This document shows positions 12,901 to 61,676 of a stretch of 64,000 nucleotides of DNA, one piece after another. The notes beneath the pieces are model-generated. The model ran no database searches, was not told the DNA's origin, and saw only the letters and a program-made list of their open reading frames with translations. The position numbers and the translations under genes are program-made. Location: contig OZ038454.1 in the NCBI GenBank assembly GCA_964036195.1, forward strand, positions 25,282,315-25,346,314, given 5' to 3'. The DNA comes from Sphaerolaimus hirsutus (taxonomy: Eukaryota > Nematoda > Chromadorea > Monhysterida > Sphaerolaimidae). Positions within the stretch are counted from its first letter, which is position 1. Every line of letters starts with the position of its first letter.

Positions 12901-15900
12901 TTGGAAAAAGCCCTTGATGTCTGGCAGCATACCCCTGCCGGTTACGAGCCGCCACTGCATGTAAACATAACCAATATACCCAATACAAGCAATTGTGATA
13001 ATAATGAGTATGATGTTCACAGCTGTTTGAAGTGGCCCAGTAAGTAACGTGTCTAATGCAGACGCACCACCTGTGACACTACCGTGAATGATGTGACCCA
13101 ATTCTTTTCCTACACCTTCAAAATATGCACCAACCCCTTGGCCAATGCCAGCAATATATGCTTGCACTGCTTTAGGATCGTTGGATTTTGTTGCAATATA
13201 ATCGACTGAACGTGTGACTTGTTGTTCGAGTCGTTGCAAATTTTGAAAGTGATGATGTGCAGCCATGATACTGAATGCAATGTCAGTCATGCTTACACCT
13301 GGTGACCCGGAAACATTTAGTGTGAATGGTTTCCACGAGCCAGCCCAAATTAATTCGATTGGGAGTTTTGTGACGTGCAAATTCGTTGGTCCGTTTTCGT
13401 TGGCCCATGAATTATCATTTAATTGATAATATTTGTGATCTTTCATGAGACAATGATCTATTGGTGAATGTGTGATCAGATCATTGGTACCAGGAGCAAC
13501 GAACATAATATGTGGGTGATTTGTGACTTTGACCGGCAGAAATTTATAACAAGTATTGTTATATTCATGTTGAAAATAAATAATTTCTGCGGTGACTGGT
13601 TTACAATCCCAAAACATTAATATATCTCCATGCCATTCAGCATAGAGATTTTGACGTCCTAGCAATGCTCGCAAGCCAAGTGTAGGATTGAATGTGACAA
13701 TTGCATGAATTATATCTAGCTGGGTCTGACGGATGTGACATAATTGTTGCCAGATAGATCCAAATTGTTTTTGTTCTAGATGTGCAATTTTGTCAACTTC
13801 GTATTGTTGACGGGCTGTGAGCAAGTGAAACACACCAACATCAAGATTTGGTGCGAGTTTGAAATGAAGAGGAGCTTTTTCAGTTTCAGGTTTTTTCAAT
13901 TTCTTAAGTTGATATCGAAGAAATTGAATGAATGCCGAGCCCTGGTCAATATATTTTGCGTCTTTTGGCACGCATTCTGCATTATTTGGAAATTGTTGTG
14001 ATCTCCATGTGACCGAAAATGCAGCTTGCAATTTTTCCACTATGTAATGATTTTGTGAATATTGCGCATCGAATTGACCAATCTCTTGGAATGCACACTG
14101 TTTGTTAAAAGCAGTAGCATTCCATAAAGAGACGCCATTGTCGCTGTCATAACAATAGCCGGCTTGTGGGTTGCAATGTGACAGATCTTGAATTTCGGAA
14201 ACAATTTTCTTTCCGTCAAGACTTGCGACCACACCTTCCTCTATGTGAAAGTTCATTACTGTGTTACTCAGATTGTGACAAAAGTAACAATAATCGATGT
14301 GAAGTGATTTGTTGGTGCTCCACAATGCATGACCAATTTTTATTAAAGGTTTGCCTTTCCAAGTTTTATTTTGGTAGGCGATCATGCAATCGTAGGTTGT
14401 GACTCTGTGATTTTTAATGATTTCTGGTGGCAGCATAGCTTTTCCGCCCACCAGACTCATATACGTGACTATAGTATGCTCTTGTTGAAAGCATCTATAG
14501 ATTGGTGTCGTTTGCGGCTGAACACGCAACGTCCATATGGATACCACAATATCCTCTATGGCTGTAACTTGAGGAAAGTGACATGTTACTTTTTCCGGAA
14601 GTTGAATTGCGTGACCAGTGCGTGTTTTATGGCACAGATTGAAAGTTTTGTGATATTGATCTGTCCATGTGAGCGCGTTGGCTAATTTTGATTGTATTAG
14701 CAACGTGAGCGCCATTAAATGCGACACGTTTCCCCAGAACGAATATGTGCCAGTGTAGCGACATGTTCGACGTGGGTTTGCGCGTCTTGCATCTTGTTGT
14801 GAAGATTGTGATTGTTGATGTGATTGATCTGTTTGTGAATCATCACCCTTATCAGGTGAAGGTTGTGAATTATCATCATCTTTTACCTCAGTGTCGATTT
14901 TATATTCAACACCGTCCTCTGTGTCGATTTCAAGAGGCACTAAGTTAGATGGAGATCTACGTGTGCGACGGCCGTTGCTTGACAATACTGTGACTGCACG
15001 TATTTTGCCATCGCTTGACACGTGTATTTCGTGAACGCGGCCCATTTGCCACATGCCGCGTGGCTGTTTATCATCTGTGATTAACACCACTTGGCCACGT
15101 TTGGGAGCTTCGTTGATTGTACCTTTTTTCAAGCGTTGATTTTTAGCTCGATCTTTGAGTAGGTCAATGTATTGACGTGACCACTCATACCAAAGCACTT
15201 CACGATTGTGACGAATTTGGTCCCAAAGTAGTGTGATATCATCTCTGTCCTTTTCAGGTACAGAATTGAGTGCAATTTCATCAATGCAGTTGACGTCATT
15301 GACACGTGGGGGTGTGAGTGTGTAGGATTTTCCAATTTGTGAAGGTGTGAGATTGAAAGATCCATCCGTCAACTTATCCCATTCCTCTTTTGGAATTTTT
15401 CGCATGGGTTCAATCGTGGTGGAATCGAGTTCCATCTCACGTTTTTCATCCATGTAACATGGTGGTGGGGTGCCCCAAAGAAAATGTATTGGGCGCAGGA
15501 TCGCTGCACCAATGTCTGTGTTTGACAAGTATGACAATGGTCGCGTATTGACGGAGAATTCGACGTCTATCATGACTGTGAGAAATTCATGCCATGTGAG
15601 ACAACGTCGTCCGCATGCTTTTTTGAGCAAGCGTTTGACTAATCCTACCATGCGTTCGTACACGCCGCCTTGCCAAGGACTATTGGCTGTGATAAAATGC
15701 CATTTCACGTCCGGCAGCAATTTGACACAGTTTTTAAACGCGGGGGCATTGTTGGACCAAATTGTGTCCGGCATGCCACGGCGCGAAATAAAACGATTTA
15801 GAGCCATAATTGTGTCGGCCGTTGATACACTATTGGTTGACTCTAAATGAATGGCGCGTGTGCTGAAGCATGTTAGCAACAAAATGTGTTGACTGTGACG

Positions 15901-18900
15901 GGTACCGTTTTGTGAATAAATTAACGGTCCCATATAATCAATACCAATATGTTGAAATGGTTTGATTTGTGATTGAGTTCGAGTGACAGGTAGTGTGTGA
16001 AAATCAGGTAATGTGAATGGACCTCCTTCCGCTTTGCGGCATGTGACACATTTTCGCAGAATTTTTGCCACTACCTGCTTGGCACTTGACAACCAGCAGT
16101 GTTCGCGTAAATCTGCTAAAGTGTGAAGCATGCCACTGTGACCAGCAAGCTCATGAAAATGAGTAACTACTAGCGTTGTTAACCACCCGGTCTTTGGCAG
16201 GTAGTAAAACAACGAAGGGTTTCGGTGTTCTTTGTGAGACACACGCGTGACACAATATAATAAATTATTCCACGCGTCCCATTTGAGCATGTGGTGTTTG
16301 CCAAGTTGCGCTTGTGAAATGCAACCGGCACATTCCTCTGCTTGTGAAATGCGCAATACATGTCTAAATGCTTCGTTTAAATCAGCTTGTGTGATGGGTT
16401 TTGATAAATATTCGCTTTCACGCTTTGCAGCTTTATGCATAGAGCGATTTAGCCAATATGTTTTGACACGAAGTAGATATACGACTGTGCGCAACAATTT
16501 TGACAGTGTTGAAAATCGTCGAATGTCGATTTCGAATGGATTTGAAGGGATGTGACGTTGTCGACTTTTGACAAACGGATTTTGAGGAGTGACATTTTGT
16601 GACAAATTGGGGTCCAAATTGACAGGCACTTGCTGTGCAAAAGCATTAGCTGGTTGTGAAACAGGCTGTGAAGTTACTGCTCCAGCATATAAAGGTCGAC
16701 TGATGTGAATGTCGCCTTTCGCAAGCTCTTCGGTGACAGGTTGCGCTTGATATTGTGAAATGTCAAGCATGGTTGATGTGAGGGGTTCAGCGAAAAATGT
16801 GGGTCCGGTAAACCACATTGTTTCGATCATTAGTTGATCAAAAGTACATCCCCGTGACGCAATGTCAGCTGGATTGTCTTTTGTAGCAACTTTGCAAATT
16901 TGAATGCAATGTTTTGACATTAGTGAATGGATTTTGGTGACCCGATTGTTGACAAAAGTAGCCAGCGGCTTTGCTGTATATAGCCAGCCGATGACAACTG
17001 TACTATCGGTCCAGAGGAAATTACTGTGAATTTTCCATCCTCCCAGCTCAGCGAGTTCATGATGTAAATAATCGATGAGCTGTGCACCAATTGTGACACC
17101 TAGCAATTCCAAGCGTGTGATTGTGAGGGGTTGACCTTGTTTTGACGGAAGTGGGGCTAGTTTTGTGCGAGCTGTGAGAAAACCACTAAAATATTGGTCA
17201 TCTTCATAGCCATATTCGTCCGGTGAAATCGCTTTTTGGCGCAAATAAGCGCAAACAGCGTATCCATCTTTTGAGGCGTCACAAAACACATGTAATTCTA
17301 ATGGCCGTGTTTCGGCTTTGACATCGATGCCAAAAGAATGAAATGAGCGCGGGAATTTGATTTGACTTATGGACGAGAGATGTCGTTTTAAATCGTCCAG
17401 TAAATCATCCGCCTCTGGGTCTTCGATGAGTTCATCCCAGGTTGTGATATTGCACCTTTGAATTATTTGTGACACGCGAAATTTCAATCGAAATAATGCG
17501 GGTGCTGTGATGCCAATGGGATCGTATGTTGAAGCCAGCAATTTGTTCAAATTGCGGCATGTGGCTGTGACAATGAGCGTGAAATCTTTCTTGGGAGCTG
17601 GCACCGCAATGGTGTCTTCAATGTGATCGTAAACGAGACCCATTACTTTGATATATTGTGACTGTTTCGGGTTGAGATCATCAGGTTTGATTTTCTCCGA
17701 AACAATACGCAAATTTGTCATCCATTCGCGCATGTTGAAATTTGCTCTGGCAAAAACAGCTTTAATTAAGCGATAGAGCTGTATTGCATATTTTTCATCA
17801 TCTACGCTGATAACTAAATTATCAACGTAAATGCTGTTGAGCAACAGCTCCAGTTTCGATCGTTCATGTGTCTCAGCGGGATGCATGTGAGCTAATTCCG
17901 CTTCTAGGTGATATTTGATAACAGTTGACAAAATGGATGGACTGCATGTGAGACCAAACAGCACCCTTGTGAATTGCATCATTTGAATATTGTCTTCGTG
18001 AGATGGAATGGTGTCATCACGCAGCCAGTAAAATTTTGTGAAAGCGCGTGATTTTGGGTGAAGAGCAATTTGTAAAAATGCTTTCTCAATATCTGCTAAT
18101 AACACCACTTTTCCGGCTCTGAAGCGAAGCATTAATCCGAGCGCCAGTGGTGTGAGAACTGGGCCTCGAAATAAGCAATTGTTGAGACTTGGCTTGCCTG
18201 CAGAACCATCATACACTATTCGACATGTTGTCGATCTGCCAGGTGTGATGACAGGTTGGTGAGGTAAGATGTGTTCTTGCAAACCATCTTGTGAACCATA
18301 TACGGGTTCTATGACACCCTTGTGAAGTTGATCTGAGATGACTTTCGCGTATGTGGCGAATAAATCAGGATCTTTTCGAAACCGTTTCAACAGTGACAGA
18401 AAGCGGCGAAATGCTTCTGCATTGTTGGTTGGCAATTCTTGAATTGTTGATTTGAATGGCCAATCTACGCTATAGCGACCAGTTTCTGGATCGAGAGTAA
18501 TTGATTCCAGAATTAACTGTTCAGCTATGTCGTCATCATGTGATAATGGATCATCTGTGATACCTATTGACTCGAGACTGTGAAACTGAAATAATGTCTC
18601 TTGGCCAACAGCAACAGCTGACGAAGCATGTGAACTACATGAAACCATGAATTGATGTGGGGAAATGTCGGGTGTTGTGACAAATGACTGTGATGACGCA
18701 TTTCCGCCAAGCATCAATCCAAGTATTGATTCGACTATGATCAATCCAGATGGGAGTTCGATTTCTGTTGGTCGAATGTCGAACTTCCAATAATAGTCTT
18801 GACCAATGACTACATCTGGTTGACATAGTTTGTGACAAAACTCATCAGTCATTTCGGTTAATTCAAGCGGTTCCGCGAATTGTTCTTGTGTGTGTTCACC

Positions 18901-21900
18901 GTACACAATATAAATGACTGTTTTGTCATCTTGTGACAAAGGAGGTGGGCATGCATATGTTGCCAAATTATCCACTGCTCGTAAAGTGAGCGGAATTTGT
19001 AACATATTGCCCTGATTGTCGACGTGTTTGTAAATAGGCATGACAGCCTCGACCAAAAACGTATTGACTGTGACAGGCGTTTTTGTCGCAAACACGTTCA
19101 TTTGAAGAACAACATCTCCTTTGTTTTCAAAGTTATACTCATTTGCCACGGATGCTTTAATGTATGAATATTCGCATCCAGTGTCAAAGAATATTAACAA
19201 AGGGTCTGTGACTCGATTTAATTCAGCGTCTTTATTAATTAATGAAGCCTGGGCCACTTGCAAACGAACAATGGGTGCAAAATCGAACTCACATTCTTGT
19301 TCGGCCTGTTGTCTGGTAGCGGTGTTGGGGTTACCGTAACCCGCTTGTGCGCTCAGCACCTCCACCGTGGGCCTGTGACTGGGTTGAAGTGGCACCGACG
19401 ATGACATTTGGTTCGGGTTGAGGTGCGGGTACACCTCGTACCGTTTCTGCTGGAAGCCGCGGATTTTGGCTTCGACGGTCTCCATGTCCATGCCGTCCTT
19501 GATGAGGCTGGCGCGGAGCGTCGTCCACAGCTCATTTTCGCTGTGGTACTTGCGGGCTTCCTCTTGAGCTCTAGCCTGGAGCTCGTTCACGGGCCTCGGC
19601 CATTCGCCCATGTCCAGCGGGCCGTCCATATCCAGTTGATACAGCGTCTGCTGTCTCCACCGGAAATCGTTCTTGTCCGGGGGGATGACACACACGCTCA
19701 TCGGTTCCGTGTGTGAAGGCGGATATGATGGCGGTGCATGTGACGAAGCCGCGCCCGTTGTGATTACCTGAGCGTTGACAAAATTAGCGCTCGTCGCTTT
19801 GACAAAGGCTTTATTTTGTGAATTGTTTACCTGACGCCTGGCGGGTGCCTGTCTGGTAGGACAGAACGCCCCGTGATGCTGACCAATCTGGCGACAATAG
19901 TAGCAACTCAATCGTTGAGTGCATTGTGCCGCTTGATGGCCTCTGCGTGTGCAGCGCGTGCACACATCGCCCAAAGCTTGCAACCGTTCAGTGCGCTCTC
20001 TCGGTGTGACGTATTGAGGGCAGTCGGTTGTGTAGTGCTCTTTGATGCCACAGAACAAGCATTCGAATTTCGGCTTGCGATAGTCAGCAGCAGGTTGTGA
20101 GGACTGCTTTTGACTAATCGCTCCGATTGCTGGAGTTCTGGGAGGTTGAGTGGAATTTTTATTTTTTCCTTGTTGTTTACCAACATTAGCATTGGTACCA
20201 GCAAAAGCAACCGTATTGTGAATAGGTTTTTGCTTTGAAAAGGTATTTTGTGATTTATTTCCTTTTTTCTTTTGCTGTTGCCAACCACCTCCATTTTGTG
20301 GCTTTTTTAACGATGAATTTTGTGATTTCTGAACAACATTTGAAGATTGTGAACTTTGTTGTTCAGTTTTCATCGCATCTAACCGAGCACGAGCAATGGT
20401 AGTTAATGCATCAACAAACCTGACGACTGTGAGTTCTGTGTCGTCGGTTGCAGCAGTGCGCATCGAATTCCGGTGTTCTTCTGTGACGGCAAGAACAATA
20501 TTATCGGGAAGATAACCACGAATTATTCTTAACACTGCACCAGAATCGACACTTTCACCCCGTTCCTTAAGTTGATTGAGAGTTGACAGAAGGGTTCGTG
20601 TGAAATTTGTGAGGGAGTCTCCTCTTGACGAAGGTTTTTCAAGTGAATACAATTTATCCCAAAGGGCGGCTTGTACCCGATGCGTTTCACCAAAGTTTGA
20701 TTTTAACATGGTGACCGCTGTGTTGTAATCTCGACCATCACCTTTTAATCCGGCCAGCAGTTCCGCTGCTGGACCGATAAGGCTGAGCTTGAGGTATGTA
20801 TATTTCATACCATTTGACAAATTAGCTCGGTCGTGAATTTGAGCTCGAAAAATCTCCCACCAAGCTGCCCATTCTAACGGATCACCGTTATATTTAGCAA
20901 GCTCGATTTTTGGTAACTTTAACAAAGTTTCCGGTTGTGAAGGTTGAAAACTACTTCCCATATTGACATTGTTGTAAGGGGGTTGTGAAGGGGGTTGAGT
21001 AGTTAAATCAACATTAACATTTGACTGACCTTTCAAGGAAAGTATCAACCTTTCCGCGGATTTGATTTGCGCTTGGGCGGTCGCCATCCTCAATTCCAGC
21101 TCATCCATGAGCATCATCGCATTGTTCGAGCCCGAGTAGAGCGCGCGCTCTAATTTCGCGTTGGCGCTCTTTATTTCTTCGGCCACTCTGTCTTGATCAC
21201 TGTCCCGGCTTGTGATGTGATCTTGGACAATAGATGTGAATTTGTCCATAGCCGCAGACAGGTCCGAGCGTTTCAGCTCAGCTTGGTAGCCGTAAGCTTG
21301 AAGTAATTCTAATACTTCCTCCGCCGCGCGCAAGTTCACGGCGGCGGGTTGTGACTTGTCTTTGACGATTTTAGGAATCGGTTTGGATGTGAAACGTAGC
21401 ACTCCGTTGCACACTCCAGTCAACGCCCGGCTATGTTGAGTCAACGGATGAGTTGTGTCGGACTCATCTACGTTGCTCACAGGCATAGCTGCGGCGGGTT
21501 GGGCGCCTCGCTGAGCGCGTACGCGTTCCTCCATAGCAAATCTCGATCGATTTATTGCTTATTAGCAAAGTGGTAGCTAGCTGTGAACGAAATAAAATAA
21601 TAAAATAAATATTTCGTTTCTTGTGACTTGTACTTGTAAAATCGTAAGTAAATATGCACGCGCTACTAACGATTTTGCGTCCAAAACCGTATTACCGTAA
21701 CCTCGTGCGTGTGACTCAAGCTGTGAGAAACAATTTCCAATGAAATTTCGCGCGAGACGACTTAATTAGAGTGACCAATTAGTTTAATTAGTCACCCTGC
21801 TCGCTGCGCCATGTAAAATAATATGGAACTTGTTGAAATAACTTGTGATCCAGCTCCTATTCCTAACCGAGGAAGAGGACAAATGTGAACGTATGAAAGT

Positions 21901-23782
21901 TGACGTGAAGCGTCGTCTCTAGTTGACGTTCCGTTATTTTATCAAATGTGATTAGTTGAGTTGAAGTGAATTGACGTGAGTTAGTGTGAAGCAAATTTAG
22001 ATTGTTTACCAAAGGTTTTGACGAACGTTTTTATTTAGACAATTAAAATACAAAGAAATAAATGTAAATAAAATATATCTAAAATTATACGTAAACAAAG
22101 GAATTAATTTACAACTAAATTAATTACTTAATTAAAACGTAAGAGAAGCTCTAGTTACCGAAGAAACAAGGCAATTTAAAGAAGGCACTTAATTACAATA
22201 ATTAAGTGGCGCGGTTGTGAATAAAGCACCTCAAACAGCGCAAGTGTTAATAAAGCACTGAGGTGACTTAAAGCACCAAGAGTAAAACTTAGCACCAAAA
22301 ACCAAGCGATTTAATAAAGTGACTACGGCGCTTATTTAGATCCTAGGAAGAGATTCGTGTGAAGTTGACGAGGTTGCAAACACTGCCGATTTTAGCTGTG
22401 AAATCGGCTTTTAAGGGCCAGACCGATGCCGATTGACTTGGCGCCAATCGGTCGGCTCTAATCTCCGATTTTTCACCCAACATTTCCAATTGTGAAAGTT
22501 CAATCCTTGCCCGCTCGCTTCTCCGATGAAAAGCGAGCTAAACTGGCAAGATAGTGAAAATGTGAGCCAAGCCAGACAGCATTTGAAATGGCGCGCGGGC
22601 CCGGCCCCCCACTCGGGGCGGGCCCGCCGCTTAACATAAACATGACGGCGTATGTGCGTGCTGCTTGTCAAGGAAATGTGGCGGAATGTGAGCAATGACT
22701 AAGATCTAAATATGTGAGCGATGTGAAGCGCACGTTGTAAACAACTTCGCTTGAGATATTAAATGACGAATGTGAAGATGTTAAAATTGGAATGTAAATA
22801 TAAATGAAATCTTGATAAGTTGAATTAATTAAATATAAAAGTGAACAAAAAGACGTTAACTTAAATATTATAGGTTTTACATTTTACGATAATGTTACAC
22901 ACCATCACTAGCTACGTCGCAACCAAAGTCAACATAAAATTTTTTTTGTTTTCAACTGTACGCTTTTACGCGTGCACATTGTTTTATGGCCTTGCATCCA
23001 ACATTTCCGATTTTTTGTAAAATTTTTGTAAAATATTTGTAAAATGGTTTCATTTTATTTTATAAATGACATTTGAGAATAAAATAAAATAAACTGAAAC
23101 AAAAATAAAATAAAAATAAAATACAATTTGATTAAAAATAAAATACAATTTTAGTAAAAAGAATTTTACTAAAACCAACCATGAGCATAACACATAAATA
23201 TGAATAATGAATGGAAAATTAGGTAGGTATACAGGTTTTTGATCATAATATTTTATTGATAAAATTATGGTAGGATTCTGCCATACCTTGCGGTCAGAGT
23301 TGTTAAAAGTACTGAACTTTTTTTAAAGTAAATGTAAACGTAAAGTATTTTTTCTCACACTTGAGTACAGAAAACGTAAAGTATTTTATTTTTACTTTTA
23401 CACTGTGTAATAGCGGTGAGTAAAATACTTTGTTCCAGAGAAACGTAAAAATGAGTATTTTTCTAGGGTAAACATAGAAATGGGTATTTTCCCTCACAGA
23501 AAACGTAGTAGTGAATATTTTATCACAAAAAATGCCAGGACTTTTGACACTTTGCAAGACATTTGACACTTTACGGGGCTTTTTACATGGTCTGGGATTG
23601 GGACCGGAAATAGGTAGACAGAAATGCACATACCTATAGTAAAACACAACTCACCCAGTGAAATAGAAAATTCCTTCAATGAGATAAAAAAGTCCGAGTG
23701 GCCAATTGATGAAGTTTCCTGTATTTGTCACTTTGCCATCACCAGTCACATTGCACACGATCAAATCTGATAGTTCACCCAT
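3979..23782 (-). CDS. Srt-family serpentine chemoreceptor (7TM GPCR), multi-exon
   Basis: Exons in transcription order: probable first exon 23782-23655, then 9186-8952, 8565-8399, 8253-8188, 7850-7724, 4507-4346 and 4145-3979. The six from 9186 on join with matching phases into about 307 codons; with the first exon the total is close to the usual 330-350. Nematode Srt features: YIPCLW in TM1, SCYKILAAMGFIDLG in TM2, LLSFNRAVEM at the end of TM3, YMWICLALLYG in TM4, VWLFDPNGG, TMAIEMNTFNNFSTIGIV in TM5, QAFFLCANTFFTAAGYV in TM6, then WQTTHG and GNIIVYLLLNRTIRN before the tail. It is predicted to act in chemosensory neuron membranes. Oddities: the intron 8398-8254 is a transposon; the donor at 4346/4345 reads GC, not GT; a hAT element rewrites the last residues; the first exon ends in phase 2 while the next starts in phase 0, so that exon is least certain. 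Introns host about 16 kb of transposons. Confidence 0.82.
5166..6327. mobile_element. hAT-type MITE, CAGGGTTGG family, copy A
   Basis: The left end is CAGGGTTGGC and the right end CCAACCGTG, flanked by AACATGAC twice (5158-5165 and 6328-6335), an 8-bp hAT-type duplication. The sub-terminal sequence is made of AAAATAAAAT and ACAATTTTAGTAAAA repeats and no transposase is present. It is inserted into the fold-back element around it and carries a smaller palindrome at about 5885-6185. Copies B (9198-23183) and C (52851-53143) belong to the same family. Confidence 0.85.
5885..6185. repeat. near-perfect palindrome inside MITE copy A
   Basis: Arms of about 120 bp face each other: CCGGCAAAAAATAATTTTTA, GTGAATAATTGG and GCATGCACAAAATTTTTGCA on the left recur inverted on the right, around a short centre near 6025-6050. 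GC-rich CCGGGGACAGG tips contrast with AT-rich arms. It is probably a separate MITE nested in copy A; I could not settle its target duplication. Confidence 0.6.
6413..7682. mobile_element. hAT-type non-autonomous element, copy 2
   Basis: Ends CAACAATGG and CCATCGTTG are flanked by CCTATTGA twice (6405-6412 and 7683-7690). Sub-terminal repeats of the ACACAGAAACTC type on the left and AAAAACTCGAGTT type on the right match copy 1 (637-3991). It shares with copy 1 a short internal segment (CATCTCCTGGTGG) but lacks the reverse transcriptase. It is inserted into the right arm of the fold-back element and holds a TA-flanked MITE at 6777-7207. Confidence 0.85.
6777..7207. mobile_element. TA-flanked CCGTATTT MITE
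   Basis: It starts TA|CCGTATTTACTCGAATAATT and ends AATTATTCAAGTAAATACAG|TA. The arms consist of repeated runs of C separated by TTGAATAATT. This is one of about 15 copies of the CCGTATTT family in the window. Confidence 0.7.
8254..8398 (-). mobile_element. introner (family 1) forming a receptor intron
   Basis: In gene orientation the element starts GTGCCACTCCCAGACCCTGT directly after codon TTG and ends GGGAGTGCCCCCTG directly before codon ATG. Its arms are inverted repeats rich in GACATTTGACATTTTACAGG. Removing 145 bp joins GCAYL to MNGVGALYH in frame, where Srt proteins are continuous. The flanking bases (TTG on the left, CTG as the last three on the right) look like an imperfect 3-bp target duplication. 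The terminal dinucleotide is TG, so splicing probably uses GGGAG nine bases earlier, which adds three codons and keeps frame. Confidence 0.8.
10651..11740 (-). repeat. 3' LTR of the BEL element
   Basis: It starts TGTAAAATAATACGG and ends GTTACACA on the plus strand. It is 1,090 bp and nearly identical to 21812-22901 (for example TACGG against TATGG near the start, and AAGCGAAC against AAGTGAAC near the end). A GC-rich block (GGCGCGCGGGCCCGG) sits at 11428-11470. The short open frames inside it are repeated in both LTRs and are not supported as genes. Confidence 0.95.
11741..11755 (-). promoter_or_regulatory. polypurine tract of the BEL element
   Basis: Directly before the 3' LTR the sense strand reads TAGTTTCGGGAG, a short purine-rich stretch in the position where plus-strand DNA synthesis is primed. 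It is brief and interrupted by pyrimidines, so the call rests mainly on position. Confidence 0.5.
11846..12868 (-). CDS. basic accessory reading frame overlapping the env tail of the BEL element
   Basis: This frame runs from an ATG at 12868 for 340 codons to a stop at 11846, just before the 3' LTR. The frame stays open upstream to 12988 without an ATG. It overlaps the end of the large gag-pol-env frame by about 390 bp in another phase, then continues alone for about 630 bp. The product is rich in Arg, Lys, Ser, Pro and Gln. Near its start it has the cluster KIGKRRRRNRQKKPKSG, resembling arginine-rich RNA-binding or nuclear-entry motifs. An SRSRSRSP stretch lies in the middle and an acidic end (EDADDLLPQE type) closes it. 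Its length without stops beyond the overlap argues for selection. Expression by splicing or reinitiation is inferred. No known family is recognised. Confidence 0.55.
   Translation of the reverse strand: MGTPSVQQGKIGKRRRRNRQKKPKSGFNKPALSNQTVTQPSSSSQLPSKFVTPLKRVSPFKRLSGRSVQPRSDPPVGYSTERAEEIEMETGARRVTKPAPPCESQPQSSSPNARLTVTEPVTAEVTMEDVIPDREPLQKRLKRFAGVAGLPGEQQSSHKTFSFIPQTFHKLNNINKKLVKSKVKRSKKICDLPQTNTFTVRHRTRRDGRKSRSRSRSPSVPFDQFNSITSQCTTSFTTSHVPLLSSQPLAASEQWQPTEPSKTIVDETDTLRQAFEKLAKESEKLPNWPGRPAEAPEDQAPGHGEGSQPEEDAVEPMDEHHEEGRENAGVEDADDLLPQE
12478..21534 (-). CDS. BEL/Pao gag-pol-env-like polyprotein (3,018 codons)
   Basis: One uninterrupted frame from ATG 21534. Approximate domains by residue: gag 1-600 with three Cys-His knuckles near 490-560 (CLFCGIKEHYTTDC, CTRCTRRGHQAAQC, CYYCRQIGQHHGAFC); aspartic protease near 781 (FFDTGCEY); reverse transcriptase about 1050-1300 (LLADIEKAFLQ, FGLTCSPS, YVDNLVI); RNase H near 1418 (FCDASKDGYAV); integrase HHCC zinc motif about 1790-1833, catalytic core (GIDYMGP, IWSNNAPAF, GGVYERMVG) about 1863-1960. 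From about 2280 on there is an env-like part: a hydrophobic leader-like stretch, a Cys-rich ectodomain, and a membrane anchor near 2840 (IILIIITIACIGYIGYVY) followed by a basic tail. The polyprotein would form particles and copy and integrate the element. Oddities: YVDN instead of YVDD, and SNN instead of SDN at the second integrase acid. Confidence 0.92.
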   Translation of the reverse strand: MEERVRAQRGAQPAAAMPVSNVDESDTTHPLTQHSRALTGVCNGVLRFTSKPIPKIVKDKSQPAAVNLRAAEEVLELLQAYGYQAELKRSDLSAAMDKFTSIVQDHITSRDSDQDRVAEEIKSANAKLERALYSGSNNAMMLMDELELRMATAQAQIKSAERLILSLKGQSNVNVDLTTQPPSQPPYNNVNMGSSFQPSQPETLLKLPKIELAKYNGDPLEWAAWWEIFRAQIHDRANLSNGMKYTYLKLSLIGPAAELLAGLKGDGRDYNTAVTMLKSNFGETHRVQAALWDKLYSLEKPSSRGDSLTNFTRTLLSTLNQLKERGESVDSGAVLRIIRGYLPDNIVLAVTEEHRNSMRTAATDDTELTVVRFVDALTTIARARLDAMKTEQQSSQSSNVVQKSQNSSLKKPQNGGGWQQQKKKGNKSQNTFSKQKPIHNTVAFAGTNANVGKQQGKNKNSTQPPRTPAIGAISQKQSSQPAADYRKPKFECLFCGIKEHYTTDCPQYVTPRERTERLQALGDVCTRCTRRGHQAAQCTQRLSCYYCRQIGQHHGAFCPTRQAPARRQVNNSQNKAFVKATSANFVNAQVITTGAASSHAPPSYPPSHTEPMSVCVIPPDKNDFRWRQQTLYQLDMDGPLDMGEWPRPVNELQARAQEEARKYHSENELWTTLRASLIKDGMDMETVEAKIRGFQQKRYEVYPHLNPNQMSSSVPLQPSHRPTVEVLSAQAGYGNPNTATRQQAEQECEFDFAPIVRLQVAQASLINKDAELNRVTDPLLIFFDTGCEYSYIKASVANEYNFENKGDVVLQMNVFATKTPVTVNTFLVEAVMPIYKHVDNQGNMLQIPLTLRAVDNLATYACPPPLSQDDKTVIYIVYGEHTQEQFAEPLELTEMTDEFCHKLCQPDVVIGQDYYWKFDIRPTEIELPSGLIIVESILGLMLGGNASSQSFVTTPDISPHQFMVSCSSHASSAVAVGQETLFQFHSLESIGITDDPLSHDDDIAEQLILESITLDPETGRYSVDWPFKSTIQELPTNNAEAFRRFLSLLKRFRKDPDLFATYAKVISDQLHKGVIEPVYGSQDGLQEHILPHQPVITPGRSTTCRIVYDGSAGKPSLNNCLFRGPVLTPLALGLMLRFRAGKVVLLADIEKAFLQIALHPKSRAFTKFYWLRDDTIPSHEDNIQMMQFTRVLFGLTCSPSILSTVIKYHLEAELAHMHPAETHERSKLELLLNSIYVDNLVISVDDEKYAIQLYRLIKAVFARANFNMREWMTNLRIVSEKIKPDDLNPKQSQYIKVMGLVYDHIEDTIAVPAPKKDFTLIVTATCRNLNKLLASTYDPIGITAPALFRLKFRVSQIIQRCNITTWDELIEDPEADDLLDDLKRHLSSISQIKFPRSFHSFGIDVKAETRPLELHVFCDASKDGYAVCAYLRQKAISPDEYGYEDDQYFSGFLTARTKLAPLPSKQGQPLTITRLELLGVTIGAQLIDYLHHELAELGGWKIHSNFLWTDSTVVIGWLYTAKPLATFVNNRVTKIHSLMSKHCIQICKVATKDNPADIASRGCTFDQLMIETMWFTGPTFFAEPLTSTMLDISQYQAQPVTEELAKGDIHISRPLYAGAVTSQPVSQPANAFAQQVPVNLDPNLSQNVTPQNPFVKSRQRHIPSNPFEIDIRRFSTLSKLLRTVVYLLRVKTYWLNRSMHKAAKRESEYLSKPITQADLNEAFRHVLRISQAEECAGCISQAQLGKHHMLKWDAWNNLLYCVTRVSHKEHRNPSLFYYLPKTGWLTTLVVTHFHELAGHSGMLHTLADLREHCWLSSAKQVVAKILRKCVTCRKAEGGPFTLPDFHTLPVTRTQSQIKPFQHIGIDYMGPLIYSQNGTRHSQHILLLTCFSTRAIHLESTNSVSTADTIMALNRFISRRGMPDTIWSNNAPAFKNCVKLLPDVKWHFITANSPWQGGVYERMVGLVKRLLKKACGRRCLTWHEFLTVMIDVEFSVNTRPLSYLSNTDIGAAILRPIHFLWGTPPPCYMDEKREMELDSTTIEPMRKIPKEEWDKLTDGSFNLTPSQIGKSYTLTPPRVNDVNCIDEIALNSVPEKDRDDITLLWDQIRHNREVLWYEWSRQYIDLLKDRAKNQRLKKGTINEAPKRGQVVLITDDKQPRGMWQMGRVHEIHVSSDGKIRAVTVLSSNGRRTRRSPSNLVPLEIDTEDGVEYKIDTEVKDDDNSQPSPDKGDDSQTDQSHQQSQSSQQDARRANPRRTCRYTGTYSFWGNVSHLMALTLLIQSKLANALTWTDQYHKTFNLCHKTRTGHAIQLPEKVTCHFPQVTAIEDIVVSIWTLRVQPQTTPIYRCFQQEHTIVTYMSLVGGKAMLPPEIIKNHRVTTYDCMIAYQNKTWKGKPLIKIGHALWSTNKSLHIDYCYFCHNLSNTVMNFHIEEGVVASLDGKKIVSEIQDLSHCNPQAGYCYDSDNGVSLWNATAFNKQCAFQEIGQFDAQYSQNHYIVEKLQAAFSVTWRSQQFPNNAECVPKDAKYIDQGSAFIQFLRYQLKKLKKPETEKAPLHFKLAPNLDVGVFHLLTARQQYEVDKIAHLEQKQFGSIWQQLCHIRQTQLDIIHAIVTFNPTLGLRALLGRQNLYAEWHGDILMFWDCKPVTAEIIYFQHEYNNTCYKFLPVKVTNHPHIMFVAPGTNDLITHSPIDHCLMKDHKYYQLNDNSWANENGPTNLHVTKLPIELIWAGSWKPFTLNVSGSPGVSMTDIAFSIMAAHHHFQNLQRLEQQVTRSVDYIATKSNDPKAVQAYIAGIGQGVGAYFEGVGKELGHIIHGSVTGGASALDTLLTGPLQTAVNIILIIITIACIGYIGYVYMQWRLVTGRGMLPDIKGFFQRKGRRDRSPNKWEPRPFSKEKSVSDGDVTARRNRKAASTNPLCQIKPSHNRQVRHSYLQSLSHPSNEYLHSNGFQDARYSLDRIPRSGIVPNAPKKSKWRRVRAGSQNLHPPASHNRRARHQTPDSQSPSLSQRKSQWKT
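21794..21811 (-). promoter_or_regulatory. tRNA primer-binding site of the BEL element
   Basis: Immediately after the 5' LTR the sense strand reads TGGCGCAGCGAGCAGGGT. The leading TGG pairs with the CCA end of a tRNA, and there is no gap to the LTR. I cannot name the tRNA. Confidence 0.7.
21812..22901 (-). repeat. 5' LTR of the BEL element
   Basis: It is 1,090 bp, TG...CA, nearly identical to the 3' LTR, and carries the promoter of the element by position. Left of it (21535-21793) is the untranslated leader before the gag start. Confidence 0.95.
23300..23613. repeat. AACGTAAAGTATTTT repeat block and a truncated introner family 1 end
   Basis: Positions 23300-23520 hold a degenerate block of AAAACGTAAAGTATTTT-like words, also seen at 24040-24210, 29000-29110, 29660-29790 and 38510-38600. 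Positions 23537-23613 read, on the minus strand, GTCCCAATCCCAGACCATGT followed by the ACTTTGCAAGACATTTGACA motif, i.e. one half of the introner family found in the receptor and oxidase genes. The other half is missing. Confidence 0.5.
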
Positions 23783-25600: not shown

Positions 25601-26088
25601 CCGTATTTCTGCTAATAGAAGAGCGCCGTTCTATTTATTTCATCAACTTTTTTACCCACGTAAGCAACATTTCAATATCAGGTGCCAGTTCCACAAATTT
25701 AGAAGTGAAAAGTGAAATGGCAAAAGCGAAGTGAATTGGCAAGTAAAACCGCAAAAGTGAAGTGGCAAATTCGAAGTGAAATGGCAAGTAAATTGGCAAA
25801 AGCGAAATAAAAAATAAAATGTAATTTTATTGTAATTTCACATCTCAATTCACTTCGCTTTTGCCATTTCACTTCTCACTTCTCAATTTGTGGAACTGGC
25901 CCCAGCCCAAGAGCATCAATTTAAACGAAGCCAAATGTGAAAACAATCCGATAATTTTAGTTCTGAACACATACACGTTATCACAACCTATTTTCAACTA
26001 TTTTTGTATTTTGGCGTTTAACAATTACCTGCGTAATTTCTACCTGCCGTTCTATTGGAGGTATGCCGTTCTATTAGAAGAAATACGG
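25601..26088. mobile_element. CCGTATTTCTGCT MITE
   Basis: It starts CCGTATTTCTGCTAATAGAA and ends TTCTATTAGAAGAAATACGG|TA. It shares only the outer CCGTATTTC with the main family, so it is a separate subfamily. It hosts an introner family 2 element at 25682-25905. Confidence 0.65.
25682..25905 (+). mobile_element. introner family 2 element, in non-coding DNA
   Basis: Directly after CAG it starts GTGCCAGTTCC. It ends GGAACTGGCCC followed by CAG. The arms are inverted repeats of AAGTGAAATGGCAAAAGCGA type. The 3-bp CAG on both sides is the expected target duplication. Here it sits in a MITE, so it shows the insertion pattern without a gene. Confidence 0.7.
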
Positions 26089-32618: not shown

Positions 32619-33202
32619 GCACAATACGTACAACAGCGACACTAGCACTTTTGAGTTCACCAGGTGCCAGTTCTGCAAGTGGAAAAGTTAAGAGTTAAAA
32701 GTTAAGAGTTGAGTAAAATGACAAATGGCAAGTTCAGAGTAAAGTTAAATGATAAATGATGAGTTAAGAGACAAGAGGCAAGTTAAATGACAAATGATTA
32801 GTTAAGAAATAAGAGTAAAGTGAAGAGTCAAGCAAGTGTATCCAAATCTTATTTTTTGTATCCAACTCATGTTTTTGTATGTCGAAAAATAAGATTTGGA
32901 TACAAAAACATAAGATCTGGATACAAAAAAAATAAGATTTGGATACACTTGCTTGACTCTTAACTTTACTTTTATCTCTTAACTAATCATTTGTCATTTA
33001 ACTTTACTCTTAAATTTACTCTTGTCTCTTAACTCATCATTTATCATTTAATTTGACTCTTAACTTGCCATTTGTCATTTTACTCAACTCTTAACTTTTA
33101 ACTCTTAACTTTTCCACTTGCGGAACTGGCCCCAGATCACCCTCTGTGATGGGAATTACGGTCGGCACTGCTGTGCTCCTCACTATATGTTGTGCTCTGT
33201 AC
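32619..33202 (+). CDS. two exons of a putative membrane protein, split by a transposon intron
   Basis: Exon 32619-32663 follows AACTCTCAG and reads HNTYNSDTSTFEFT. Exon 33136-33202 continues in frame as RSPSVMGITVGTAVLLTICC then ALY, up to a TAC|GTGTCG donor-like site. The second part is a convincing transmembrane helix (GITVGTAVLLTICCALYV), so the fragment looks like the end of an ectodomain and the anchor of a type I membrane protein. The intron between them is an inverted-repeat element of introner family 2. I do not recognise the gene and did not find its start or end. Possible upstream fragments are noted at 30.6-31.9 kb. Confidence 0.45.
32664..33135 (+). mobile_element. introner family 2 element forming an intron
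   Basis: After ACCAG it starts GTGCCAGTTCTGCAAGTGG. It ends CCACTTGCGGAACTGGCCC then CAG, followed by ATCACCC. The inverted arms are AAAAGTTAAGAGTTAAAAG and ATGACAAATGGCAAGTT repeats around a centre with TATCCAAATCTTATTTTTTG. CAG before and after is the 3-bp target duplication and also provides the AG acceptor. Its GT start is the donor. Excision joins two coding segments in frame. Confidence 0.75.
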
Positions 33203-37767: not shown

Positions 37768-38729
37768 CAAACATATTCGAAAATTCGAAGTTCGAGTAAT
37801 CTCAGAACAAAACTCTAAAACTAAAACTAGAAATAAAACTTAAGGGTATGAATAAGTTCCAACGCACAAGAAAATTGTGTCGCGCAGTTTTTGCGCGACA
37901 CAAGTGTGTTGTGCAGGTGACAACGCTGGTGATGGAATGCCGCAATACTCTCAAATGGTGTCAGCTCTAAGGCGCCATTCCATTACTAATTTTACTTGCG
38001 TGACAAATTTGTTTCGCGCAAAAACTGCGCGACACAATTTTGTGGTGCGTTGGAAATTCCTGTGAGCCAAAACTTTAAACACTTTTTACTAGAGGGTTTG
38101 CCACCGTTAGCCACGTGTGACTACAATTTTTCTTGGCTTTCATGTCATGAAAATTAAATATTTGTTGATTTTATGACCACTGTCAATTCATAACACCCCT
38201 CGAAATACCCCCCCCCCCAAATTGAGTGTAAGGAGAGCATATACAACAAAAGCTGCGGTTTGTGATCCGGGCAATGCAAACCACAAGTTAAAAACAATGA
38301 CCGTTACGTTATAACAGGATTTATACCATCTATATACTTATTTATATCAATCTATAGATTGTTTAATAATGATAATGGAAATGATAAGCGCACAAATAAA
38401 ACCTTTTTTAGGTAGGTAGTCTGAAGTTCAAACTTCAAACACTGTCATAACATTTCCACCAAAAGTCCGATAACAATGATAAGATGAATGCGCAGATGTT
38501 AAAACATATTTACGCTTACTTGAAAAATATTAATACTCAAGTACTGAGTAAACACATTTACATTTCCGCTGACAAAATACCTGTACTCACTACCTATACT
38601 TTTCGAAAGTATTTGAGTCATATTTCAGAAAAATCAATACATGGACTTTTTGGGGAAAAGTGAGAGAAATCACTACAATAGGGGGAAACTAGTTGAAATA
38701 GGTTTAAATTGGTAAAATATGCACATATA
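37768..38729. other. intergenic, no gene seen
   Basis: It contains a palindrome at 37856-38055 (AATTGTGTCGCGCAGTTTTTGC against GCAAAAACTGCGCGACACAATT, with CCAACGCAC and GTGCGTTGG at the tips), so a further MITE of about 195 bp. A C-run remnant of the CCGTATTT family follows at 38195-38220, then an ACGTTTACTTGAAAAATA block near 38510-38600. Confidence 0.55.
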
Positions 38730-39285
38730 CAGGGGTGGGCATCTTCAGTTACCGCTGGGAAAATGCGATAGATTGAGCTACGGTTGAGCTAACAGAATGA
38801 AATTTTAACACAATGGAGTAGACTCCATAGGACACCTATTCTGAAGTTTGCAACCCAAACGGCCACATTTTGGGTGAGTTGTGGAACACACGGTTTTTAG
38901 TGTAATTTTGTGACTTGGCGTCACCCATAGGATAAATCGAGGGTGGCATTTGAGGGGGGGGGGGCATCGGTCGTTGGTGTCGTCCCATTCTGTCGTACAT
39001 CGGCCGATTTTGATGCCCTTTGAGTATGTTGTGGTAATCCCTACTACCAAATTCTTTTTTTACTCGAATAGTCCCCCAGTCCCGAGATAAGGGGGGTGAA
39101 GTCACAAAATTACACTAAAAACTGTGTGTTCCACAACTCCTCCAAACTGTGGCCGTTTGGGTTGCAAACTTCAGCATAGGCGTCCTATGGAGTCTACTCT
39201 ATTGTGTTAAAATTTCATTGTGATAGCTCAACTGTAGCTCAAGCTATCGCGTTTTTCCAGCGGTAACTGAAGATGCCCACCCCTG
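38730..39285. mobile_element. hAT-like MITE, CAGGGGTGGGC family
   Basis: Ends CAGGGGTGGGCATCTTCAGT and ACTGAAGATGCCCACCCCTG are perfect inverted repeats. Arms of about 195 bp continue (TTACCGCTGG, ATAGACTCCATAGGA-like, GTTTGCAACCCAAACGGCC). CAGGGGTGGGC is a common hAT opening. The 8-bp duplication is not clear. The centre has a G-run and a TACTCGAATAGTCCCC remnant. Confidence 0.7.
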
Positions 39286-39670
39286 TATAACAAAAAAGCA
39301 GAAAATGAGCAAAAAAATTCTGAAAATTAGTAATTTCAAATGTAATATTGGAGCAAAAGTTTGAAAAATACTAACTTTTATGCTTTCAAAGGGAAAAGTA
39401 TTTGACTCATTTTCACTCAAAAGTAAAAGTAAAAAATCTATATTTTCTGTGCTCAGGGGGAAAGTAGAACAAAAATACTTTACATCTACAAAGTTCATAC
39501 ATTGAAAAAGTTCATAACGTTTAAACAACTCTGGATAAATGTACTCTAACAACGTGCGCGTGTGAGAATACTGTCTATTTACAACACAACGGTATTACGT
39601 GTTTTCATTTATTTTACCTCCTGAAAATATTCATATACCTAGGTACTTTATTTGCAACGAATACAGATTC

Positions 39671-39703: not shown

Positions 39704-42700
39704 ATGAAAGTGAACCCGGATTTGATCAAAGAGAGGCGGAATGCATCCTTTGATGTCGATAAATTGGCTGAGTTCGCCTGTGGCGGTCGGGATGCATTGC
39801 AAAACCGAAGGTTTTTTATTCACACCCACACTTTCAAAAAATTTCTCGCCCACTGTCTCAAAAAAAAAATTCAAACTGAAAAACGCAGGCATTGTCGCCA
39901 GCTTTTGTCCGCCGACCCGGTGCCACTCCCAGAACCTGTAAAATGCCCTGTAAAATGTAAAATGGCATGCAAAGTGCTTGCAAGTGTTAATTTTCGCTTT
40001 GATTTCGCCAGATCATTTTTACGTTTTGCATTACATTTGCTATTTCAGAGGGCATTTTACATGACTCTTGACATTTTGCATGACATTTGACATTTTACAG
40101 GGCATTTTACAAGACTCTTGACATTTTGCATGACACTTGACATTTTACAGGGCATTTTGCAGTGTCTGGAAGTGCCCCCCGGTGTTCACGAGTTCGAAGC
40201 CCCCGGCTTACATGAACAGGGGGGAGCGAATGAGAGCCGTGGCGGAAAAAGTCACGCACATGACCGATATAGCAATTGAACTGGGATTAAATGAGAGATC
40301 GCACTTGTATGATTTGAAGAGGTTGGCATGTGATATCGAATTTTTGTGCCATAAAATGATTTTGACAAAAAAAATAAAAAATAAAAAATGAGACTCAACG
40401 AGGAGTGCCCTAAAAAGCAAGTTTCAAGTTTAGGAAAAATCAGTTTGAAAAGGAATACTCACCAGTTGTCTACGTTAGACACAGGAGGTGTTCTTCTTTC
40501 AGGTATTTTTTCCCCAAACCTCGATAAGAAAAATAATTCTCCAGTTGAACTATTCGAGCAAATACGGTAGCTTAAAACGCTCTCAAACCGCAGCATGGCG
40601 CTAGGCACGGAGTCGAACCCGTACGATCTGCACTTTAGCATGTTCATACCAGGTGCCAGTCCCGGACCCTGTAAAAAGTCCTGTAAAATGTCGAATGTCA
40701 TGCAAATAAGTGTCAAAAGTCATGGAAAATGCCCTGCAAAATGGCAACTCGGTTTTCCATGACATTTGACATTTTACAGGGCTTTTTACATGGTCTGGGA
40801 GTGCCCCCAGCCCTGCTGACACAGGGCACCGCGGAACAGCAAGAAAAGTGGCTTGCTCCTTCCCTGAACAGATCCATTTGCGGCACTTTTGTGCAAACTG
40901 AATTGGGCCATGGTTGGTTTTGGGATGGGGAAAAGCTGGAAATTGTGGCATCGGAAAAAATCCCGCGTACCGCATGCTTTGCTTTTTTTCTGAAGGAAGC
41001 ACTTCATCATGACGTCATTGTTGATAAAATAAAAATTGTTCAAAAAAAGGAAAAAACGTCACAGGAAAAACATTTGTCGGTTTTACGCGACTCCGCCTTC
41101 TTCTTTTTGACACGTTTTTCTTTTTTTTGTGAAATTGTCTACCTACATAATTATCCTGCTCGCGCGTTATCGACTAAGACATAAGTAATTCTGAACGCAT
41201 ACTTTGCGGTCCGCCGAGTAAGCATGCAAAATAAACGGAAAGCAGTCAACTGAGCCAGGAAACTGGAACATCTAAGCTGAGGGGCCAGTTCCCTAAGTGG
41301 AAAAGTTAAGAGTTACAACCTAAGGGTTGAGAAAAATGACAAATGACAAGTTATGAGTGAAGTTTAGAGTTAGAGTTGAGTAAAACGACAAATGATTTTA
41401 CTCAACTCTTAACTTTTCACTTTACTCTTAACTTATAATTTATCCTTTTTCGCAACTCTTAACTCTTTACTCTAAACTTTTCCACTTGCGGAACCAGCAC
41501 CAAGAGACAAAATGTTTACCGATGAAACACAAACAACCTCAACGATTGGTATCCTTTGTGTCGCATCTGTCAACCATTGTGCCTGTCAATTTTCTCCTGA
41601 ACTTAATGTTGCCAGGTTCCCCAGAACCGTTCCACCAATCATCTAAAAACCCCCTAACTCCTCCTCCAATCCAAGGAACCAACGTTCGGGCATTGGAAAC
41701 AACTGCAACGTACGTACCGGAGGATAGGGAGTTTATTTTGAACACGCCCACATTGACGTCCAGAAAATGGTGGCCCGGACTATTGGCAAAGTCCTCAAAT
41801 CACGCTGTAGTTGTCGCTCAACTTTGGTCGCTGGGAAAGTGCCACGGACCGCACTTGTTCATGTTGCAGCTGAGAGATTTGGACACGCATCGGGTGCTTC
41901 CAGGTTTGTAGTGCTGTTTTTATGTGAGAATGTGTTTGAAAGTTGCAAGAGATTTACCGTATTTTCTCGAAATACCCCCCCCCCCCCGGGGGCGTGAAAT
42001 TTCCCCCCCCTATTTTTCAGAGTGAGAATTTGGGGCGGTAATTTCGAGGGGGGGGGGGGGGGTAATTCGAGGGGGGATTAGTATTTCGCTAGAAATTTTT
42101 TGGAAACCCAGTACACATTTGTTGTTTGTTACGTACGCAGACGTAGAAAAATGCGACAAAAACCACCATATATAAGAGTCTACAGGCTTAAAAAAGTATG
42201 TCGATGGTATAAACAACGTTATAACGTAACACGGTCATTGTTGTTAACGTGTGTTATGCATTGCCACTTCACAAAAGGCACCTTTTGTCATGTACGTTCT
42301 ATTTACACTCAATTTGGGGGGGGGGTACTTCGAGGGGGGGTTATTAATTCATAGTGCCCATTTTGAGGGGGGGTTTTTCGAGGGGGGTATTTCGACGGGG
42401 GGGGGGGTATTTCGACGGGGAGGGGGGTATTTCAAGGAAATACGGTAACTTATAGATTGATTTAATGATGCAACTTGATTTAAAGATTTATGATTTAACT
42501 TGAACTGCATGAGTTATAATGCACTTTTTGTAAATTGGTAGTTTATTATGATGATTTGATTACCTAAATGCGTTTGCCAAGCTGACGTTATTCTAATGTT
42601 TTGAACGAAGCTTTCGCAACTCACGGATCTGAAATGGTGAAATGGATCTGCGAATGCTGAATTTTGTTTGTTATGCACGTAGATTCGGCCATTCGCAGGC

Positions 42701-58967: not shown

Positions 58968-59846
58968 TTCTCTCTGACCTTCGGTTGGGTTTTGTGGTTC
59001 TCTACAATTGATACCACAAGGATTTACAAACACAAAAACAACAGCAAAACATAAACATAACCAATTAAGATAATAAAAAAGTTTGACACCTTGCATAAAC
59101 CATGCTATCATATCACAAAACCTATACCACACAGAATGCACACTGCACACTATCATACCAAATTGCAAACTGTCCACATTTTACCATCGAGTTTCATGCC
59201 CAACCATTTTAAGGAACTATACAAAAATCTATTCCAAAAGATTGCATCTTTGGTATTGGTCTTGTTATTGTTGGTACATTACATACCACATATCAAAATA
59301 CATGGCTAGCATGTGGGCAACCTTAATTAGAGTGGTGTATTTCCTATAATATGGCTTAAAGTCTAGACTGGTGTCTTCGATGGAAAGGTGGGTAAAGAGG
59401 TGATGAAAAAATATATGGGTCCTCTGTCATTGGAGGAAATATGATACTTAAGTTAAGTTTGCCCACATGCTAGGCATGTGTTTTGAAATGCAGTATGTAA
59501 TGTACCAACAATAACAAGACCAATACCAAATATGCAATGTTTTGGAATGGATTTTTGTAAACTTCCGTAAAATGGTTGGGCATGAAACTTGGTAGTAAAA
59601 TGTGGACAGTTTGCGATTTGGTATGACGGTGTGCAGTGTGCATTCTGTGTGGTATAGGTTTTGTGATATGATAGTGTGGTTTATGCAAGGTGTCAAACTT
59701 TGTTGTAATCTTAAATTGGTTACATTTGTGCTTTGCTGTTCTTTTTGTGTTTGTAAATCCTTGTGGTATTAATTGTAGAGAACCACAAAACCCACTAATC
59801 AGAGACTTGCAAAAACTGACACCCCAGTGGGGACTAGTGATGTTAA
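58968..59846. repeat. large inverted repeat (hairpin) with arms of about 370 bp
   Basis: The left arm runs from about 58990 (GGGTTTTGTGGTTCTCTACA) to 59325 and the right arm from about 59455 to 59790 (TGTAGAGAACCACAAAACCC). Between are matches such as ACCATGCTATCATATCACAA against TTGTGATATGATAGTGTGGT. The loop is about 130 bp. No terminal repeats beyond the arms were identified. A transcript would fold into long double-stranded RNA. Confidence 0.8.
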
Positions 59847-61162: not shown

Positions 61163-61676
61163 GTGGGGACCCCCCTCCAAATGGCACCCCCTGGGGAACC
61201 CCTCAAAAATGGCACCCCCTGGGAACTGCCCAAAAATGGGACCCCCTAGGGACCCCACAGAAATGGCACCCCCCTGAGGACCATCAAAAAATGGCACCCC
61301 CTAGGGACCCCCCGAAAATGGCACCCCCTAGGGACCCCCCCCCCCCAAAAAAAATGGCACCCCCTTGGAACCCCCACAAAAATGGCACCCCCTGGGTACC
61401 CACCCTAAGATGGCTCCCCCTGGGGACTCTAAAAAAAATGGCACCCCCTGGGGACGCCCCCCCAAATGAAACCCCCTATGGACCCCCCCCCCCAAAAAAA
61501 AAAAATTATAGCACCCCCCTGAAGGACCACCAAAAAATGCCCCCATGGGGACCACCCAAAAAATGGCATCCCATGGGGACCCCCTTGAAATGGCACACCC
61601 ATATGTACCTCCAAAACATGGCACCCCCTGGAGACCCCCCAAAAATGGCACCCCATGGGGACCCCCTTTAAATCCT
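61163..61676. repeat. minisatellite, units of about 28-36 bp
   Basis: Units follow the pattern ATGGCACCCCCTGGGGACCC with A-run spacers, about 17 copies, irregular in length. The first half-unit (CCCCAGTGGGGAC) lies at 59822-59834, on the other side of the hAT element, so the array predates that insertion. Long open frames on both strands follow from the composition and are not supported as genes. Confidence 0.85.

Follow-up and report, generated by a model that had tools for sequence, protein, structure and literature searches.

That introners give rise to new introns is well documented, although in animals they are rare. A survey by Gozashti et al. in 2022 recorded 548 introner families and, in the part of it cited here, placed those of animals in two groups only (PMC9860276). 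The relevant part of a study of a tunicate mentions introner transposons whose splice sites are weak as a possible origin of divergent splice sites (PMC13326754), and the part of a nematode intron study used here suggests that the sources of gained introns may lie in unsequenced "dark matter" (PMC9169325). Among the literature matches listed, judged by title and the start of the abstract, no report of nematode introners was found, which is not proof of absence. Here, we analyzed a 64,000-nucleotide stretch of the nematode Sphaerolaimus hirsutus (hereafter the window; assembly GCA_964036195.1, contig OZ038454.1, positions 25,282,315 to 25,346,314), in which a repeated element, family A, interrupts an acyl-CoA oxidase (ACOX) gene. 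Family A is probably, and we say so with moderate confidence from sequence alone, an introner: a non-autonomous miniature inverted-repeat transposable element (MITE) that inserts at CWG (W, A or T) and is spliced out in one orientation, with an intron 3' end of AG or TG.

The ACOX reading is interrupted at 40653-40810 by 158 bp, of which the first two bases are GT and the last two AG; the initial annotation had placed this interval in an oxidase exon correctly to the base. The interval consists of a 155-bp hairpin MITE, designated A4, and a single copy of the duplicated 3-bp target, CAG. The flanking CAG copy that had been reported is present on both sides. The features of this part of the gene are as follows.

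39704-39810 (+): ACOX exon, ending ...LQNRR
39889-39919 (+): ACOX exon, up to ...LLSADP
39920-40178 (+): element A3, a longer second copy of family A in the ACOX gene, between LLSADP and VFTSSK; duplication CCG (39917-39919 and 40179-40181), precise end CG
40182-40321 (+): ACOX exon, ending ...YDLKR
40594-40652 (+): ACOX exon, last residues MFIP
40650-40652 (+): 5' CAG copy of the target duplication, exonic
40653-40807 (+): element A4, family A hairpin MITE (GTGCCAGTCCC...GGGAGTGCCCC), which with the next CAG forms the proposed intron 40653-40810
40653-40654 (+): putative GT donor, bases 1 and 2 of A4
40800-40801 (+): AG internal to A4, an alternative acceptor that keeps TGCCCCCAG in frame
40808-40810 (+): 3' CAG copy of the target duplication, source of the putative AG acceptor (40809-40810)
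40811-40912 (+): ACOX exon, ending ...ELGHG

The inverted arms claimed for this element extend over 40652-40706 and 40754-40808, 55 nt each and 85% complementary. The predicted RNA fold of 40641-40820 has an energy of -86.4 kcal/mol, compared with -43.6 (sd 4.2) for shuffled sequences (z -10.2).

Removal of A4 yields ATG TTC ATA CCA G/CC CTG CTG ACA CAG GGC ACC (slashes mark junctions here and below), which joins MFIP to ALLTQGT. The joined exons matched the C. elegans acyl-CoA oxidase 5k3g with an E value of 1.1e-49; the junction was ungapped, as it was against other solved acyl-CoA oxidases, and two one-residue gaps fell elsewhere. Use of the internal AG at 40800-40801, which the initial annotation had overlooked, would add nine in-frame bases (VPP) and would lower the Acyl-CoA_ox_N score from 105.9 to 98.0 bits. 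For A3, precise removal was better than addition of CPP by 8.3 bits (ACOX 105.9 vs 97.6). Protein continuity at precise removal thus supports the earlier proposal that the element end is the intron end, and A4 has the canonical U2-type ends, GT...AG, at its precise boundaries. The closest ACOX proteins were mostly nematode at ~49-52% identity, mixed with fish and molluscs, and a Plectus fragment had 58% identity over 78% of the query. Database searches with ACOX and with OSCP1 (below) found no spliced product of this species, and no close relative, in the protein database.

Family A is repeated across the assembly, which comprises 348 Mb in 762 contigs. A similarity search gave 2818 first-look candidates, of which 40 were scored. 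The element's first 16 bases had 1839 exact matches when preceded by CAG (CAG + GTGCCASTCCCRGACC; 948 + 891) and 1537 when preceded by CTG (CTG + GTGCCASTCCCRGACC; 745 + 792), which bears out the repeated family that had been predicted. The reversed control pattern had no assembly-wide match in either search, and chance is disfavored by these zero control matches. A copy that has GTGCC at each end enters both the CAG and the CTG set; L031 and L081, for example, are one element read from either end. A pattern scan of viral contigs gave no match, and an Rfam scan of the window gave none at the gathering threshold. Because the element start adjoins both CAG and CTG, the target duplication is CWG. 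A 3-bp 5'-CWG-3' duplication is described, in the part of the source used here, as a mark of NuwaI, of the PIF/Harbinger-ISL2EU-Spy (PHIS) superfamily (PMC4482050). The duplication and the terminal inverted repeats, which are present, suggest that family A is a non-autonomous MITE of NuwaI/PHIS type, presumably served by a NuwaI transposase.

For closer analysis, 120 copies were fetched: 30 by similarity, 50 from the CAG set, and 40 from the CTG set, the latter two taken from the top of the listing for one contig (C1) and therefore non-random. A 3' end was recognizable in 112 of the 120, and removal of near-duplicates left 106 copies. The duplications were CAG/CAG or CTG/CTG in 79 of these 106 and one of each in 14, with 78 of the 106 coming from sets chosen by their 5' CAG or CTG. 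The first two element bases were G (0.99) and T (0.98) across sampled copies, most of which had been chosen by that end. Pairwise identity had a median of 0.83 among 85 copies of 120-200 bp and a maximum of 1.00, which may include segmental copies. With this median, the bulk of the copies do not look very recent, and the description of the family as "active or recently active" in the initial annotation is not upheld.

Since the CWG target is palindromic and splicing is directional, the strand bias of exonic copies is a direct measure of selection for splicing. A leave-one-out codon model (1167 training codons; decision at score 3 and margin 3) decided the coding strand for 27 of the 106 copies: 26 had the coding sequence on the GT strand (sense), one was antisense, and 79 stayed undecided (two-sided p 4e-7 if copies are independent). 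This is the orientation bias expected of introners in exons. Divided by 3' end, sense and antisense copies numbered 16:1 for AG (n=57), 9:0 for TG (n=40, 31 undecided), and 1:0 for other ends (n=9). All 12 training peptides lay on the GT strand when both strands were searched, the peptides having been chosen by eye from open reading frames (ORFs) of both strands. An earlier codon model with 543 codons gave four clear sense and one clear antisense among 28 copies with a recognized 3' end. In a strict two-flank frame test, five of five decided copies were in frame with precise removal. In a stop-codon test at 75 nt, precise joins were open on some strand in 78 of 106 cases, as were 61 of 140 points taken 300 nt away. 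A packed Pfam scan of joined ORFs was uninformative, with no family found for 40 sense ORFs or for antisense ORFs (2389 of 2781 residues).

Precise removal of the element also restored proteins that match homologues in other genes. The following junctions were ungapped: GGCDGA/RVRF in a peroxidase (L020; PF00141, 1.3e-8; PDB 3e2n, 1.7e-12), RGV/WIETG in a NUDT6-like gene (L030; Nudix PF18290, 7.4e-16), QRLR/AQN and DKLYDL/MTMA in OSCP1 (L048 and L096; PF10188, 2e-11 and 5.8e-17), and KFGS/WTYDG in a Cys-loop receptor (L089; PF02931, 8e-19). Seven further copies were recognized by eye in coding contexts: L016 (lectin), L022 (UBE2O-like), L041 (SMYD-like), L057 (prolyl-oligopeptidase-like), L059 (vWD-like), L063 (PAN-like), and L119 (zinc finger). 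OSCP1 holds two elements with conserved exons around both, one reading as GT-AG and the other, 835 bp farther on, as GT-TG (the CTG-type junction, contig C1, around 3592147). The closest OSCP1 protein, that of Plectus sambesii (70%), is identical through TSMDKLYDLMTMA, the stretch at the GT-TG junction, and shows a six-residue gap at a guessed exon end. Several conserved proteins are thus ungapped after removal of the element plus one CWG; this and the strand bias point to introner-type introns and not to DNA-eliminated inserts, and we infer splicing of family A copies on this sequence evidence. The heme peroxidase domain of L020 is of class I and close to the cytochrome c peroxidase of yeast. 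To our knowledge, such a peroxidase is unusual for an animal, and horizontal transfer of this gene is possible.

The window contains two further copies of family A:

8257-8398 (-): element A1, complete, inside an Srt chemoreceptor exon (GCAYL/MNGVGALYH), flanks TTG/CTG
23535-23604 (-): element A2, truncated, outside any recognized exon

The gene that holds A1, at 8146-9213 (-), encodes an Srt-class chemoreceptor (PF10321, 1.1e-17), a family of nematodes that by itself identifies the host as one; precise removal of A1 scored 35.7 bits vs 33.3 with three added residues. The repeated element, its coincident boundaries, and the presence of this receptor in the window agree with the original proposal of a transposon-borne, introner-type intron in a nematode. 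The duplications of the three complete window copies are CAG/CAG (A4), TTG/CTG (A1), and CCG/CCG (A3), so that two of the three match CWG only partly. Canonical GT...AG ends at the precise boundaries are absent from A1, from A3, and from copies with a 3' CTG.

These copies bear on the proposal, made at the outset, that the donor is the element's GT and the acceptor the AG of the duplication. It holds at CAG targets and fails as a general rule, as there are 1537 CTG starts beside the 1839 CAG starts and TG copies are also exonic and sense. If the AG of the duplication were strictly needed, exons would lack copies with a 3' TG; such copies are present, so the AG acceptor rule is not the whole mechanism. 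Sense coding was assigned to 9 of 40 copies with a 3' TG and to 16 of 57 with a 3' AG. Both GT-AG and GT-TG introners therefore appear, by sequence, to exist in this host. A preference for the 3' AG is suggested by full-length copies with unequal duplications, of which 29 have 5' CTG and 3' CAG and 10 the reverse (p 0.003), and by the excess of 302 CAG starts over CTG starts (p 2e-7).

The main rival explanation is that only canonical splicing operates. CAG copies would then be GT-AG introns at the duplication, and CTG or CCG copies would use an internal AG (the one at -9, the one at -19 if the donor is a GC at +2, or one paired with an exonic donor), with codons added or changed. We consider this unlikely, though it is the best of the alternatives, and it has a precedent in an Aureococcus introner that adds 12 bases, given in the part of the survey used here (PMC9860276). 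An in-frame AG at -9 occurs in 12 of the 40 copies with a 3' TG, and in-frame AGs lie farther up in L030 (-18 and -30), L096 (-45), and L086 (-51). Pairing a GC at +2 with an AG at -19 preserves the frame. Donors farther upstream in the exon are also possible; in L096, splicing from a GT at -10 to the AG at -19 would keep the frame and replace YDL. In the similarity set (28 copies after removal of redundancy), 13 of 14 copies with a 3' AG had a long sense ORF (at least 24 codons on both sides), compared with 3 of 9 with a 3' TG; an exonic position may thus be less frequent for TG copies. At least four other ACOX introns read as ordinary GT-AG introns, and a TG 3' end lies outside the U2 rule. 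All of these observations weigh against precise GT-TG removal, and the tests of the coding strand and frame have weak points of their own. The training codons of the model were recognized partly by eye, L045 is antisense coding by that model, the strict frame test decided only five copies, and many copies lie outside recognizable exons. In the stop-codon test, joins shifted by 1, 2, or 19 nt were equally open (80, 74, and 79 of 106), and the strand asymmetry was weak (19 plus-only, 10 minus-only). L117 looks antisense coding by eye, has ends of GC..AG in that direction, and was kept undecided; it is possibly an introner used in the opposite direction.

Other observations count against canonical splicing alone. 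The AG at -9 is missing from 28 of the 40, and seven of the nine decided exonic TG copies lack an in-frame AG there (none in L030, L086, L095, L096, and L101; one base off in L007 and L040). Among 10 listed CTG copies without an AG at -9 or -10, the interval from -60 to +15 contains no AG in frame with the first GT in seven. In the domains tested, additional residues lowered the score by 5-14 bits, though by only 2.4 in Srt. At the three non-AG junctions tested, canonical alternatives were 9-14 bits worse than precise removal (OSCP1, 50.3 vs 62.7; Nudix, 42.3 vs 51.3; receptor, 54.5 vs 68.4), and the peroxidase scored 35.4 bits with precise removal vs 30.1 with the canonical alternative. If L089 were spliced at the -9 AG, the Trp of KFGSWTYDG, a residue that we take to be conserved, would be replaced.

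Programmed DNA excision, in which the elements would be present in the germline and cut out precisely in somatic nuclei, as with internal eliminated sequences, leaving one CWG, is very improbable. Programmed DNA elimination does occur in some nematodes, PIF/Harbinger elements can excise precisely, and precise removal works at CAG and CTG alike. Excision from DNA, however, gives no reason for a strand preference; the independence of strand expected of such elements is contradicted by the 26:1 ratio among decided exonic copies, which strongly favors removal at the RNA level over excision from DNA, and among copies with unequal duplications a 3' AG is more frequent than a 3' TG. Equally improbable is that these are ordinary MITE insertions, in disrupted genes, untranslated regions or old introns, with the intron look a coincidence of ends: many copies do lie in AT-rich DNA without a recognizable exon, and A2 is truncated, but plain gene disruption is disfavored by the repeated conserved junctions, the strand bias, and OSCP1 with its two elements amid conserved exons.

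Under the introner reading, a family A MITE would insert at CWG and duplicate the 3 bp. The element would supply the donor GT, directly after the exonic G of CWG, together with a long hairpin, and the second CWG copy would become the intron 3' end, such that removal restores the original reading exactly. A CAG target would give a canonical GT-AG intron, and a CTG target the same precise removal with a 3' end of TG. The host, while preferring AG, would tolerate TG ends, perhaps because the 55-nt hairpin arms hold the donor and the 3' end together. We advance more tentatively, at a little less than even likelihood, the wider picture of a natural two-allele experiment: thousands of introners whose 3' site, AG or TG, is set by CWG, with precise GT-TG splicing, probably hairpin-aided, occurring genome-wide and being corrected to AG copy by copy.

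A second family, family B, is represented by three copies in the window:

25682-25902 (+): element B1 (GTGCCAGTTCC...GGAACTGGCCC), CAG/CAG, uncertain coding context
32664-33132 (+): element B2, CAG/CAG, between HNTYNSDTSTFEFTR and SPSVMGITVGTAVLLTICCALY; flanks likely coding by eye, without a Pfam match
41281-41501 (-): element B3, antisense, within an ordinary ACOX intron

Family B has asymmetric ends like those of family A, CAG duplications in two of three copies, and no internal AG near the 3' end; it may be a second introner family. The ends of both families are GGTGC at 5' and, mirrored, GGGG at 3'. They differ at the third base (in family A also at the fifth), and it is this third-base difference that gives GT at the 5' end.

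Elsewhere in the window, an intact BEL/Pao-type ORF of 3026 aa occupies 12481-21558 (-) and is an envelope-bearing retroelement; its piece 12484-17460 matches a Pao peptidase, an integrase zinc-binding domain, and a Monjiviricetes-type fusion glycoprotein. Reverse transcriptase ORFs at 1060-2878 (+) are Penelope-like by eye, with RVT_1 only below the cut-off. ATGGCACCCCC motifs are repeated at 61181-61628, and there are further long hairpin repeats, e.g., at 59065-59714 and 38726-39289.

The CAG/CTG alternative tests the need for a 3' AG within one family and, in OSCP1, even within one gene; that need is a question raised by work on Fritillaria and some protists, in the parts of it cited here. 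Several described systems resemble family A in part, as far as the cited portions of each source go. Introners of Aureococcus and Micromonas, and the 548 surveyed families, likewise combine terminal inverted repeats with a target duplication and split the splice sites between element and duplication; the portion of that survey used here names copepods, not nematodes, and contains no two-form duplication with one form lacking AG (PMC9860276). NuwaI shares the 3-bp 5'-CWG-3' duplication and is found mainly in animals, the likeness to family A lying in the duplication and the terminal inverted repeats (PMC4482050). Amoebophrya introner elements are alike in their hairpin inverted repeats that join exon ends, their 3-5 nt direct repeats over the boundaries, and their many non-GT-AG ends; they differ in belonging to a dinoflagellate parasite and in having very variable ends and no family-specific inverted-repeat motif, whereas here a single family, in an animal, begins with GT and duplicates CWG (PMC7789003). 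In the nonconventional introns of euglenids, a stable RNA structure also joins the intron ends and the borders are variable, but these are protist introns without conserved borders, in contrast to a repeat family beginning with GT (PMC6221363, PMC4770533). Finally, the tunicate Fritillaria borealis is, like S. hirsutus, an animal, and its U2 spliceosome still removes introns most of which escape GT/AG; in that species 95% of introns deviate and the U2AF subunits occur in duplicate, whereas the ordinary introns that we placed in S. hirsutus look GT-AG (PMC13326754).
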